NCBI GenBank assembly: GCA_009192285.1 | Contig: WBVU01000003.1 | Location: forward strand, 4,309,973 to 4,373,972 | Direction: 5' to 3' | Source: Morchella semilibera | Lineage: Eukaryota; Ascomycota; Pezizomycetes; Pezizales; Morchellaceae | DNA: 64,000 bases | In this document: piece after piece, positions 27,082 to 34,468 of the stretch | How positions within the stretch are numbered: position 1 is the stretch's first letter | Layout of the letters: each line of letters begins with the position of its first letter | Program-made: the position numbers and the translations under genes | Notes under the pieces: generated by a model | Databases searched by the model: none | What the model was told of the DNA's origin: nothing | Seen by the model: the letters and a program-made list of their open reading frames with translations, nothing else

Positions 27082-28459
27082 CTATACCTGCTGTTTCCCC
27101 TCCGCCTCCTGACTCCCTCTACTGCTACTCCTCATGCCCTCCTCTTCCTCCTCTAAGCCAAGCCCTAGCCTCCTAAACTCGATTTCGTCAATTTCATTTG
27201 TCTGTCTTCTTGCTGATCGGTTCACAGAGAACCAGTACGGACCCTTATGGGATGCGGAATCTGCAGATGTGGAATGTTTAGCGGCTTGTGCTTTGATGAG
27301 ACGGTACATCACCGGTGCGTTTGCGACGCAGCAGGCTACTAACATCTCGATGGATGCGAACTATGTAGAAAATGGTTTGTTAAGGAGTGTGTGGGATGCG
27401 CGCGGGAGGAATAAAAAAACATACGAGTGTACGCCAGCGCTGGATCGCGTGATTCTCAATCACGAAGGGGAGCCGAAATATGCTGACGAGAATGACAAAG
27501 AAGCCAAGTGAAAAGAGGATGTAGAGTTGGATTTTTCTATTGTTGTGTTGGTAATTTGGTAATCTAGAGAGACGAGGATGGGGGGGGGGGGGGGAGAATA
27601 CCGTTTTCGTGGCAGATTGGTGTTGAATATTATGGGAAGAGGATATATGATGAGGACTAAGTCTGTTGCGATATTGCAGGCGCCAGTTGTGTAGAGCTGA
27701 GCCTCGGCGAATGTGCACGCTTCTGTAGATCGAATTGAGTTAATGGTAAGTATAATAGAGTAGCTTTTGACTGAGAGATAACATACTTCCTGGATCTGGA
27801 ATGACTTGCCCTGGATGAAGTTAGTATATACAATTACTTAAAACACGCCCAGAGTTGCTTACAATAACTAGCGATTCGAGGTATTAGAATATAACAATCT
27901 TTTACTAAACTGGCAGTATCGAATGAACTTACTGATTAAATGGCCGGCACTCCAATAAAGTCGACACCATCACTGCCGCAAATGTCAAGAATAAAGAGGC
28001 CCATATATACTTGATAAACTTCCTGTAATCCTCCAGTAACTTAACAATTCTTGCGTATAGTGATAGCACACACGCTTTCATCGACCAGATGCTGCATGCG
28101 CATTTCTGTCAGCCATCACCCGAAATTCCACACCCAAGCCCAGGAGCCCATACATACAACGCAGCATAACAGGACCTAGCCACCAGCGCCATCTTACTCC
28201 CCATTTCTCTCCTATGCACCTCTTCCTTTTGCATCTCGTTCCTCGCCCATTCCCCTACATTGTTTGTATCCCACACTAACACCATATGGACCACCGTCGT
28301 CCTGGCGACCAGTACCCCGAGCGCCCCCAGCATCCAGTAATCATCGTTCCTCCATTTCTTCTCCCTTGCCCAAGTTGCGGAAAGTCGTATTATAATGATG
28401 AGAAAACAGACCCCATAGAAGAGATAACCTAAAACTAGCGTGGTGAAGTCGGAGAGCAT
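27082..28459 (-). CDS. Fungal rhodopsin-domain 7TM protein (PTH11-like/SAT20 type), with a 5-nt microexon
   Basis: Membrane protein of the large fungal family with the 'rhodopsin domain' found in PTH11-like putative receptors. Seven exons: 28158-28459, 27933-28091, 27863-27867, 27787-27810, 27602-27722, 27425-27536 and 27082-27360, giving 333 residues. Start ATG at 28459. Family landmarks: WRNDDYWMLGALG after helix 1, LLECRPFN then HYWQVIPDPGKACTFAEAQL, and ATDLVLIIYPLPIIF in helix 6. Frame can be kept from ECRPFN to WQVIPDPG only if a 5-base exon (27863-27867, TTATT) is used; it supplies H-Y and the first base of W. Both flanking introns have good ends (GTAAGT...CGCTAG and GTAAGC...CATCCAG). 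Intron 5 contains a 14-base C run on the coding strand. The acidic cytoplasmic tail has a run of five Glu. Ligand unknown. Confidence 0.85.
27863..27867 (-). other. Five-nucleotide microexon
   Basis: Bases TTATT on the coding strand, between acceptor CGCTAG and donor GTAAGCAAC. The upstream intron (27868-27932) has a TTCTAATACC branch-like motif and the downstream intron (27811-27862) an ATACTAAC branch motif. Inclusion joins CA+TTATT+GG to encode His-Tyr-Trp, completing the family motif RPF-x-x-YW. Confidence 0.8.
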
Positions 28460-29636: not shown

Positions 29637-32600
29637 CTAACTGACGTTCTTTCTCTTAGTGATCCCTATGTTATTGACTGTGCGTAGAATCGAAGGGTGG
29701 TCCTCCCCGAAGCCGGCCTTCCGATACCCGGCTAGCGCCCGCTCAGACCACTCTAGTGCCTCCTCATACCGGCCCTGATTGCGGTAGACTGTTGCAATGT
29801 TATCGACTGTGCCCAGCGTCGAAGGGTGCTCCTCCCCGAGTGCCTTCTTTCTCCCGGCTAGGGCCCGCTCGTTCCACTCTAGTGCCTCCGCATACCGGCC
29901 CTGATCGCTGTAGATAAGTGCGATGTTATTGACTGTGTCCAGCGTCAAAGGGTGCTCCTCCCCGAAACCGGCCTTCCGATACCCGGCTACGGCCCGCTCG
30001 TGCCACTCTAGTGCCTCCTCATACCGGCCCTGATTGCGGTAGACTGTTGCAATGTTATCGACTGTGCCCAGCGTCGAAGGGTGCTCCTCCCCGAGTGCCT
30101 TCTTTCTCCCGGCTAGCGCCCGCTCATTCCACTCTAATGCCTCCACATACCGGCCCTGATTGCGGTAGACAATTGCGATGTTATTGACTATGTTCAGCGT
30201 CGAAGGGTGCTCCTCCCCGAATGCCTTCTGATACCCCGCTAGCGCCCGCTCATACCACTCTAGTGCCTCCTCATACCGGCCCTGATTGCGGTAGACTGTT
30301 GCAATGTTATCGACTGTGCCCAGCGTCGAAGGGTGCTCCTCCCCGAGTGCCTTCTTTCTCCGGCTAGGGCCCGCTCGTTCCACTCTAGTGCCTCCGCATA
30401 CCGGCCCTGATCGCTGTAGATAAGTGCGATGTTATTGACTGTGTCCAGCGTCAAAGGGTGCTCCTCCCCGAAACCGGCCTTCCGATACCCGGCTACGGCC
30501 CGCTCGTGCCACTCTAGTGCCTCCTCATACCGGCCCTGATTGCGGTAGACTGTTGCAATGTTATCGACTGTGCCCAGCGTCGAAGGGTGCTCCTCCCCGA
30601 GTGCCTTCTTTCTCCCGGCTAGCGCCCGCTCATTCCACTCTAATGCCTCCACATACCGGCCCTGATTGCGGTAGACAATTGCGATGTTATTGACTATGTT
30701 CAGCGTCGAAGGGTGCTCCTCCCCGAATGCCTTCTGATACCCCGCTAGCGCCCGCTCATACCACTCTAGTGCCTCCTCATACCGGCCCTGATTGCGGTAG
30801 ACTGTTGCAATGTTATCGACCGAGTCCAGCGTCGAAGTGTGCTCCTCCCCGAGTGCCTTCCGATACCCGGCTAGCGCCCGCTCATACCACTCTAGTGCCT
30901 CCGCATACCGGCCCTGATCGCTGTAGACAGCTGCGATGTTATGGACTGTGTTCAGCGTCGAAGTGTGCTCCTCCCCGAGTGCCTTCTTTTCCCCGGCTAG
31001 CGCCCGCTCATGCCACTCTAGTGCCTCCTCATACCGGCCCTGATTGCGGTAGACTGTTGCAATGTTATCGACCGAGTCCAGCGTCGAAGGGTGCTCCTCC
31101 CCGAGTGCCTTCTTTCTCTCTGCTAGCGCCCGCTCGTGCCACTCTAGTGCCTCCGCATACCGGCCCTGATTGCGGTAGACTGTTGCAATGTTATCGACCG
31201 AGTCCAGCGTCGAAGTGTGCTCCTCCCCGAGTGCCTTCCGATACCCGGCTAGCGCCCGCTCATACCACTCTAGTGCCTCCGCATACCGGCCCTGATCGCT
31301 GTAGACAGCTGCGATGTTATGGACTGTGTTCAGCGTCGAAGTGTGCTCCTCCCCGAGTGCCTTCTTTTTCCCGGCTAGCGCCCGCTCATACCACTCTAGT
31401 GCCTCCGCATACCGGCCCTGATCGCTGTAGACAGCTGCGATGTTATGGACTGTGTTCAGCGTCGAAGTGTGCTCCTCCCCGAGTGCCTTCTTTGTCCCGG
31501 CTAGCGCCCGCTCATACCACTCTAGTGCCTCCGCATACCGGCCCTGATCGCTGTAGACAATTGCGATGTTATTGACTATGTTCAGCGTCGAAGGGTGCTC
31601 CTCCCCGAGTGCCTTCCGATACCCGGCTAGCGCCCGCTCATACCACTCTAGTGCCTCCGCATACCGGCCCTGATCGCTGTAGACAGCTGCGATGTTATGG
31701 ACTGTGTTCAGCGTCGAAGTGTGCTCCTCCCCGAGTGCCTTCTTTGTCCCGGCTAGCGCCCGCTCATACCACTCTAGTGCCTCCGCATACCGGCCCTGAT
31801 TGCGGTAGACATTTGCGATGTTATTGACTATATCCAGCGTCGAAGTGTGTTCCTCCCCGAGTGCCTTCCGATACCCGGCTAGCGCCCGCTCATTCCACTC
31901 CAGGGCCTCGGTGTACTGGGCACATTCACGATATAAATTCGCAACACGAACCATTGAACCCAATGTTTTGGTTTCAGTATCGCTTAATTGAAAATCATTA
32001 CATTGCTGTTTGCTAAGATATAGAATAAAGTTGGCCATAATATTTACATCGACTCGAGGGTTTGGAGGCCCGCTTTTTACCCACTCTCTCAATTCGGCTT
32101 GCATTAAAAAAAGATGGCCATTGGTGATATTGTAATACTCGCACCGTTCGATCCACCGCCAGGCTTGTTTTGAGGAGAAAAAGCGAGTGGCCTCGTCTAA
32201 CAAATCATCGTCGTTGGGCTTGCTATTCGTAATATGATATATCCAATTGCAGGTTGAATATTCTAAGAATGGGTAGAAGCTATCATCAAAGGATTCGCTA
32301 TAAGGACTTTCCTGGAAACACGTAAATTGATTGTACAGGAGGCAGGCCTTGGCTAAGCCTTTGTGCATTTGCATTTTATTGAAATCTCTCGAGGATCCTG
32401 GGGAGTTGGGATTCGGTAGACTCAACGTATCGAAATCTCCATCCAAAAGATATTGTCTTAAAGATGTATGCACAAGTTGCACGCTGTCATCTCCAAGAAT
32501 AACGATCAATGAACCGCAGATCTTTTGGAGGAGCACCCTTAACTCCGCTCTAAGTTCAAGGCTATAATCCTCATGTGACTTTAAGCCTCCTGCAACAGCA

Positions 32601-34468
32601 AGTGCGAGGAGTAGCTCATTCACTAAGAGGGGCTGGCGTGCTATAGTAATCCAATGTAGAACTCTTCTGCACTTTTCAAAATGCTCCCCTTTCAGAGAGG
32701 ACATTCGGCGCTTGAACATGAGCCCGTATACGTCAGACAGCTGATTTGGCATCATTTCCAAGATGTTGTCAACTTCCCAGGGCTCAGCTGCAGAAATCTC
32801 ATCCAGCATCAGTTTCGCCCAAAGGATCATTCCTCCAGCCCCTTGCAAAGTTCTCGAGTGAACTTTTTGCCGGCGTCGTTGGTTGTCTCGTAGGGTCGCC
32901 GACTCTTCAATTCGTTTCAAAATAAAGGCATTGATGTCTCTCTTTACATTTTCTTCCTCAATCACAAACAAAGACCAATGCTCTTTTAACGTGGTTTCCG
33001 CCATATAGGATTCGTTTAGACGTGAAGTTGTGAAGACCTTTAGGACCATAGACCTTGATATTGAACACTCTGTGAGTTGTGTAAGAAACCTTGTCATTTC
33101 GTCGTCTTTGTTGTCGCACTCGTCAAGGCCATCGATAATGCAGTAGATAGGCGACGGGAGCATATCAAGAATTTTCTTTAACAGAGCCCAGAGTTTATGG
33201 GTAGAATCTGCAGATGGCGTGCCACTCTCGTCATAGGCTTTGTAAACGACAGGGATAAGCTTAGCCTTGTGGACTTGGTGCTTAAGTAGTTGGAAAACAA
33301 AAGTTCGTAGGATTGATAATGGGTTGTTTCTCACTTCATCGTTTTCCTTGCAAAAAAAGTATATTATCGATTCTTCTTGGCGGAGCTTGAGTGTTAAGTG
33401 ATTGATGACAACCGAGGATAACATTGACTTTCCAGAGCCTGGAATTCCTTGCACGCAAATTCGGCTAGAGGTTTCCGACACAGACCATGCGTCAAATTCC
33501 GGAGTTTCAAAGAACCAATGGCAAGAGTTCTCGAGATGCCTTTCCTGGTTTTTCTCCTGCTGGAGCTCTGGGCTGGTGCAGAAAAGCCATTTCGTAGCGG
33601 CTGAGTATCGCTCACCTGATTAGGGAATATCAGCTATGTTTGTCTTTGATCACTATCGGGGAGGAGGCTTGGCGTACTCTCGTTGTGAGATCTTGCTTCC
33701 ATCATTCCACCCAGAGCTGCTGCTGGACTAATCGTCTGGACATGGCGCTTCATATTGGACAATATTTCTTCAAAATCTGAATCAAAGGTCTTCACTACCC
33801 TCCGAAACGTGTATGCTGAAAATCTTAGTGTAAAACAATGAGGCTATCCAGTACAAATGACTTACTTATAAGACTAGAACGAAAGTGTTTTGCAACCACA
33901 AGCGCTAGGTCAACCACATCAACATAGAAGAGTGTCAATGCATCGCGCACTAACTCAAGCGCGCCAAGGTTCGAGGATCGAAAATGCTCCTCATATTTGG
34001 CAAACAGGGTCAGTTGCTCTAAAGTGTCCTGTAGAAAACCTGAAATTTTTTCGAATTCCCCTGCCGCAGTCATTACAATCTATTGTAACATTAGCATTCA
34101 CACTTTCCATTAGAATACCACTAAAGTACCTGGAGGATGATCTTTATTGGTGCCCAAATAGGACCTCCAAGGCCTGAGCCTGTACTGACCACCGATTCAA
34201 TAGTGCTTTGAAATTGTGCGAATGGCTGCATGACGGCTTGGTTGAACTTTATGAACTTCTTCAACGATGGTCGCGAATCTTCGAGTTCCTTTAATAGTGC
34301 AAGAACTTCAGAGGGGCTAACAGTTGCTTTGAAAAGCGCTTTCTCTTCAGGCTTTAAACAGTCGAACATCTTCTGTTGTGCGGGGGAAAGCTGCGAAAGC
34401 CGTTCAAGAGCTTTGCTCCACGCCGTTTGGTAGCTAGAGCTGTTTATTAGCTCCGTGAAACAAGGGGC
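29637..34468 (-). CDS. NACHT-TPR NLR-like STAND receptor (frameshifted in the repeat array)
   Basis: Fungal NLR-like protein. Exons: 34130-34468 (5' end uncertain, no clear ATG before it), 33866-34079, 33678-33815 and 29637-33615. The N-terminal ~230 residues (AWSKALERLSQLSP, GPIWAPIKIILQ, FRRVVKTFDSDFEEIL) resemble the DUF7708-type N-terminal domain of such proteins. A linker with HLENSCHWFFETPEFDAW leads to a NACHT domain: Walker A GIPGSGKS, Walker B IYCIIDGLDECD, then TTSRLNES. The C-terminal half is about 18 TPR repeats of 42 residues (kinesin-light-chain type), nearly identical at DNA level. One base is missing from a CCC run at about 30358-30361, which shifts frame in repeat 13; as read, the product ends at 30260. 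Counting one extra base makes all exons sum to a whole number of codons through the stop at 29637, so the shift is a recent mutation or a sequencing error. Predicted role: self/non-self recognition and cell-death signalling. Confidence 0.85.
29690..31915 (-). repeat. Tandem array of ~126-bp TPR-encoding repeats
   Basis: About 18 units of 126 bp (129 bp where KAGFG replaces KALG). Units share blocks such as CGGCCCTGAT and CTCCTCCCCGA at fixed spacing. Differences cluster at the same few codon positions in each unit (for example N/D/H/S before NIA, SDQ versus RNQ, and Y/N/H in EW-x-ERA). Confidence 0.95.
29861..30820 (-). repeat. Tandem ~507-bp internal duplication of four TPR units
   Basis: Sequence from about 29757-30320 is repeated almost exactly about 506 bases further on (30262-30820). 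Four units plus one codon equal 507 bp; the observed offset is 506, because one copy lacks a C at about 30358-30361. Confidence 0.9.

Follow-up and report, generated by a model that had tools for sequence, protein, structure and literature searches.

How can a gene encode a full-length seven-helix protein when its second exon and its next recognisable coding segment are out of phase? This question is raised by a gene on the minus strand of the window, the whole 64,000-nucleotide stretch of Morchella semilibera DNA that was analysed. A preliminary description of the locus had proposed that a five-nucleotide exon, TTATT, is required to keep the gene in frame. This is still the best reading: a paralogue has a predicted five-nucleotide exon at the same place, and other relatives code the same stretch without interruption. 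We are highly confident that the locus (28459-27082, minus strand) is an intact seven-exon PF20684 gene with a predicted seven-helix product, in which TTATT is the third exon and lies between two ordinary short introns 5 nt apart.

Gene structure

The gene was modelled as seven exons of 302, 159, 5, 24, 121, 112 and 279 nt (exon 7 counted with its stop codon), separated by introns of 66, 65, 52, 64, 65 and 64 nt. The joined product of 333 amino acids matched Pfam PF20684 (Fung_rhodopsin) with 117.7 bits over profile positions 1-236 of 237, the cut-off being 27. The intron-blind genome search reported one stretch of the window, with a score of 23.5 bits, below the cut-off. We take PF20684 to be linked to the Pth11-related class. 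Seven hydrophobic segments were recognised in the product (11 Kyte-Doolittle peaks above 1.3, with overlaps merged by hand), and the residues H-Y-W (154-156) lie between segments 4 and 5.

The exon boundaries were compared with those of two paralogues from the same genome, L039 and L040, whose identity to the window gene is 44% and 39%, respectively. Exon 1 (28158-28459) opens with ATG at 28459-28457 and ends in phase 2 before GTATGT; the same junction was picked when L039 was the query. The position of intron 1 (28092-28157, phase 2) is common to L039 and L040. Exon 2 (27933-28091) ends with RPFN and the bases CA, and is followed by intron 2 (27868-27932, phase 2), which reads GTAAGT...CTAATAC...CGCTAG; among 36 aligned family loci, its position and phase are common to L040 only. 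The microexon, a term used here for exons of at most about 30 nt, is exon 3 (27863-27867) and supplies the third base of H, the whole codon for Y and the first base of W. Intron 3 (27811-27862, GTAAGC...TACTAAC...CCAG) splits the W codon in phase 1 (T/GG, where the slash marks the junction) and is common to L039, L040 and L065, a locus from another clade. Exon 4 (27787-27810) encodes QVIPDPG; its 24-nt length and its phases are kept in the window gene, L039 and L040, and this exon adjoining TTATT is itself a microexon by common definitions.

Exons 5 (27602-27722) and 6 (27425-27536) encode hydrophobic segments 5 and 6, and exon 7 (27082-27360) encodes segment 7 and the tail, ending with the stop codon TAG. 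Intron 4 (27723-27786, phase 1) has a tandem acceptor, CAG and AAG, at window 27719-27725, by which exon 5 could start at 27722 or 27719 and the product could read PDPGKAC or PDPGTC; the choice varied with the query protein. There is some doubt about the model downstream of intron 5 (27537-27601, phase 2), because the donor of this intron, GTATTC, is weak (score -2.9). A run of 15 C on the minus strand (window 27580-27594) starts seven bases inside the same intron, and a C run is also present in the L040 intron at residue 163. Intron 6 (27361-27424) is in phase 0.

Requirement for the five nucleotides

Exact searches bore out the letters and coordinates from which the microexon had been proposed. 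Exon 2 ends with CA at 27933 before GTAAGT on the minus strand, in phase 2, and the QVIPDPG exon (27810-27787) starts with GG, which supplies bases two and three of a W codon, in phase 1, so that the two are out of phase. TTATT (27867-27863) is flanked as CGCTAG/TTATT/GTAAGC, with a branch-like site in both flanking introns, CTAATAC in the preceding one and TACTAAC in the following one, all of these being signals only. Inclusion of the five bases restored the frame and gave RPFN-H-Y-W-QVIPDPG. When they were skipped, the frame shifted, 75 wrong residues followed by hand count, and translation stopped in exon 6 with the last three hydrophobic segments lost.

The further claim that only TTATT keeps the frame was true of microexons, but not of every possible join. 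Candidates were taken as GT-AG exons no longer than 60 nt whose flanking introns were each 40 nt or more, and TTATT was the sole one in the 122-nt gap that kept the frame without a stop; no other GT-AG microexon was found within these limits. However, two single-intron joins that avoid the microexon also retained the frame in a survey that took introns of 40 nt or longer, donors of either GT or GC, and acceptors as far as the IPDPG codons. Both are GC-AG joins with the poor donor GCCGGC, deleting either CRPFNHY or CRPFNHYWQV, and both were rejected. Their existence speaks for a reading with no microexon at all, in which the gene would be a decaying copy, or a single GC-AG intron from 27949 would drop CRPFNHY, and TTATT would be a chance match. 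This reading is very improbable indeed: GCCGGC is not a splice-consensus donor, the product would be without the family motif, elsewhere the gene is open along its full length, and L040 has a predicted five-nucleotide exon at the same place.

When the splice sites of TTATT were masked in a copy of the sequence, the best score decreased from 240.7 to 186.0 when L039 was the query and from 196.6 to 132.9 when L040 was; these spliced alignments and the comparisons built on them are partly circular, because the L039 and L040 query proteins were read out using the window prediction, and inclusion of that prediction in the family alignment profile adds to the circularity. The splice sites were set beside those of 154 family introns, which are calls of a spliced aligner written for this analysis with hand-set splice weights. 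Among them, GTAAGT was the donor in 23 and GTAAGC in 14, and the acceptor was TAG in 85. The median length was 65 nt, and a length of at least 122 nt was seen in 7 of the 154.

Chance expectation

The 122-nt gap was shuffled 20,000 times with dinucleotides preserved and the ends kept. A frame-restoring candidate of some kind was present in 61% of the shuffled gaps, which is a point in favour of TTATT being a chance match, and a five-nucleotide candidate in 16.7%. A five-nucleotide exon giving x-[YLQFMWIHV]-W was seen in 3.2%, and one giving x-Y-W in 0.39%. The same test on the L040 gap returned 60, 10.8, 3.1 and 0.68% for the four classes in the same order. Restoration of the frame alone is cheap by chance; the correct residues are not.

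The spliced-alignment score of the real window gap was reached by none of 400 shuffles with the L039 query and by none of 400 with the L040 query, the best shuffle in the latter case being near the real score (195.0 vs. 196.6). With a shorter query, none of 1500 shuffles reached the real score of the window gap (best 141.2 vs. 154.7) or of the L040 gap (best 128.0 vs. 131.2). In 441 of the 1500 shuffled window gaps and 520 of the 1500 shuffled L040 gaps, the aligner placed both introns at the same positions and in the same phases as in the unshuffled gap. Agreement in position alone therefore carries little weight, and the choice of the aligner alone is weak.

Paralogues and the conserved motif

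The genome surveyed (56.8 Mb in 23 contigs) had 60 places matching PF20684, several per gene. A plain motif scan of the paralogues was too noisy, and our own spliced aligner was used instead to align 35 paralogue loci and the window gene, 36 in all. Places on contigs C10 and C13 were left out as mirrors of those on C9 and C12: the PF20684 places on C9/C10 and C12/C13 have nearly matching coordinates and the same E-values, which suggests duplicated or haplotype contigs. The tree and the intron statistics were limited to the 31 loci (30 paralogues and the window gene) with a profile score of at least 300, the five lower ones being poorly aligned.

The strongest new support for the microexon is a predicted five-nucleotide exon in L040. 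That gene, at C4:98282-99438, reads AGG CCG AGT CAT AG/A CTT T/GG, translated as RPSH-R-L-W-QVKPDPG, so that its exon ACTTT occupies the same codon positions and has the same phases (2 and 1) as TTATT. The two L040 introns are 85 and 89 nt long and are followed by the 24-nt exon. ACTTT was the only candidate in the 179-nt gap of L040, and both query proteins, that of the window gene and that of L039, recovered it. Going by this same-place exon in a distant duplicate, the five-nucleotide exon of the window gene is very probably real. L039 reads RPFPVY T/GG QMSPNPG, with the T/GG intron and the 24-nt exon present and the upstream intron absent. The position of the five-nucleotide exon is conserved in two of the 36 loci, the window gene and L040; the intron pair was found in none of the other 34, as called by the aligner, the lowest-scoring loci being poorly aligned.

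The residues coded across the microexon belong to a motif that is common in this genome, C-x-P-x4-W. Its P was aligned in 33 of the 36 loci (none was aligned in the other three), and W was found at P+5 in 27, the length from P to W therefore being nearly fixed. Eighteen of these 27 loci have no intron between P and W (hand count). The preliminary description had given the motif as RPF-x-x-YW followed by DPG/C, which is partly right; a Y immediately before W was found in 5 of the 36 loci (hand count). Outside this genome, a scan of viral_contigs gave 14 pattern matches, none of which was confirmed, and a PDB sequence search gave only three matches, all at chance level (E 1.6-1.7).

Origin of the intron pair

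The window gene, L039 and L040 form a supported clade (96/94). Their next nearest relatives in the tree, L046, L048, L049 and L066, code C-x-P-x4-W without an intron and with identical spacing from P to W. The residues are therefore old coding sequence into which the introns were inserted later. Exonisation of intron sequence was also considered and was ruled out by the same four loci, which code this stretch with no intron there. The microexon would have arisen by intron insertion into coding sequence, and the upstream intron would later have been lost in L039, unless L039 split off before the gain.

The trees do not fix the order in which the three genes split. In the printed tree, L039 was paired with L040 (97/90). 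In the alternative trees, the window gene joins either L039 or L040; these were 2.27 and 2.49 log units above the printed one, with p-AU values of 0.601 and 0.605, respectively. Should the window gene and L040 be sisters, a single gain of the upstream intron is enough; otherwise, one gain and one loss in L039 are needed. The intron at residue 203 is present in the window gene, L040 and L048 and absent from L039, in keeping with intron loss in that copy.

The unsettled order leaves some room for independent origins, in which the two five-nucleotide exons would both be real and the second intron would have been inserted twice beside the older T/GG intron, since the printed pairing of L039 with L040 needs either one gain and one loss or two gains. 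We consider this unlikely. Identical insertion points and phases arising twice seem less likely than a single gain, the trees with the window gene beside L039 or L040 score higher (with a single gain enough in the second case), and L039, lacking the residue-203 intron, may be an intron-losing copy.

Proposed splicing of the microexon

TTATT is probably an ordinary, constitutive microexon created by two introns 5 nt apart. In fungi, the unit of recognition for short introns is the intron itself, so that a pair of complete introns may stand only five bases from each other and be removed in turn. Here, the two short introns (65 nt in phase 2 and 52 nt in phase 1) would lie inside C-x-P-x4-W, shortly past hydrophobic segment 4. 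A donor, a branch-like site and an acceptor are present in each of them, and the spliceosome could remove them one by one by intron definition. Five bases would remain after both removals, giving H-Y-W when translated through the two junctions. The letters directly show the phases, the lone candidate, the splice signals, the matching arrangement in L040 and the unbroken coding of the stretch in relatives; that the transcript is spliced in this way, mostly constitutively, is what we infer.

A different possibility is that a regulated fraction of the transcripts lacks the microexon, which would then act as an on/off switch. Skipping would give a truncated product without the last three helices, and the message, whose shifted frame would end in exon 6 with one more intron still to follow, would probably be subject to nonsense-mediated decay. 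The outer signals are strong ones (GTAAGT at one end, TACTAAC...CCAG at the other) that could plausibly mark out all 122 nt as a single intron, and there is a precedent in the glucose-regulated 20-nt microexon of Xlr2 in Trichoderma virens (PMC11121469). However, the sequence holds nothing that separates regulated from constitutive inclusion, and the related L039 manages without the upstream intron; such a switch is quite improbable. A broader form of the idea, that the five-nucleotide exon is old in the subfamily, has been kept across many filamentous ascomycetes and is included in a regulated manner (full seven-helix protein vs. truncated, decayed message), is likewise doubtful, and we think it unlikely. 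In that case, this motif would be mispredicted in most of the subfamily's deposited models.

A neighbouring gene

A large P-loop/TPR gene, which we take to be NLR-like by resemblance, was found at window 29637-33619 on the minus strand. It contains a tandem array of a 126-bp repeat in 17.7 copies (29668-31909). A frameshift inside the array is suggested, because the TPR reading switches frame between 30431 and 30260.

Significance and comparison with known systems

Five-nucleotide exons are easily overlooked by gene finders, and the motif between helices 4 and 5 may come out broken or too short in predictions for members of this family. PF20684 is a large and poorly characterised family, and TTATT is of use chiefly in annotation and in studies of introns lying very close together. 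Two of the three related genes appear to have both introns and one has a single intron, which makes them a natural comparison for how introns five bases apart arise, are spliced and disappear. As a further case, TTATT suggests that splicing by intron definition can work with next to no exon. Among the matches listed for literature on fungal microexons and on fungal rhodopsin-domain, GPCR or PTH11 proteins, none described a microexon in a gene of the family.

By its Pfam match, the predicted window protein has the same domain as the PF20684/Pth11-related seven-helix proteins treated in PMC5526305 and PMC12842992. In the main texts of these two papers, the words intron and exon are absent and gene structure is not treated.

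Exons as short as TTATT had been called rare in fungi. They are rare, but comparable ones have already been published. P450 genes of Phanerochaete chrysosporium (PMC1184071) resemble the window gene in having very short exons (the shortest 6 bp) and frequent introns of 45-55 bp within a large gene family; unlike it, they are basidiomycete P450s, and their exons are not of five nucleotides. The Trichoderma Xlr2 microexon (PMC11121469) also belongs to a filamentous fungus, and a conserved domain is disrupted when it is missing. Unlike TTATT, it is 20 nt long, is glucose-regulated and is documented with RNA data.

The closest parallel in argument is the one-nucleotide exon of the cytochrome P450 genes CYP621A in Fusarium, which PMC12940212 describes in 20 orthologues, a number given as 24 genes in the paper's discussion, with reads from two species, and at which the models were wrong in nearly every deposited transcript. 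In both systems, a tiny exon was deduced from out-of-phase flanks inside a conserved motif, an uninterrupted relative served as the length marker, and an unusually long apparent intron was the clue. Here, however, the exon has five nucleotides and not one, the product is a predicted seven-helix protein and not a P450, and, unlike the read-backed CYP621A exon, the support comes from two paralogues of one genome by sequence alone. Fungal microexons of 1-20 nt are already in print, and TTATT, of modest novelty, adds one case of a known type.
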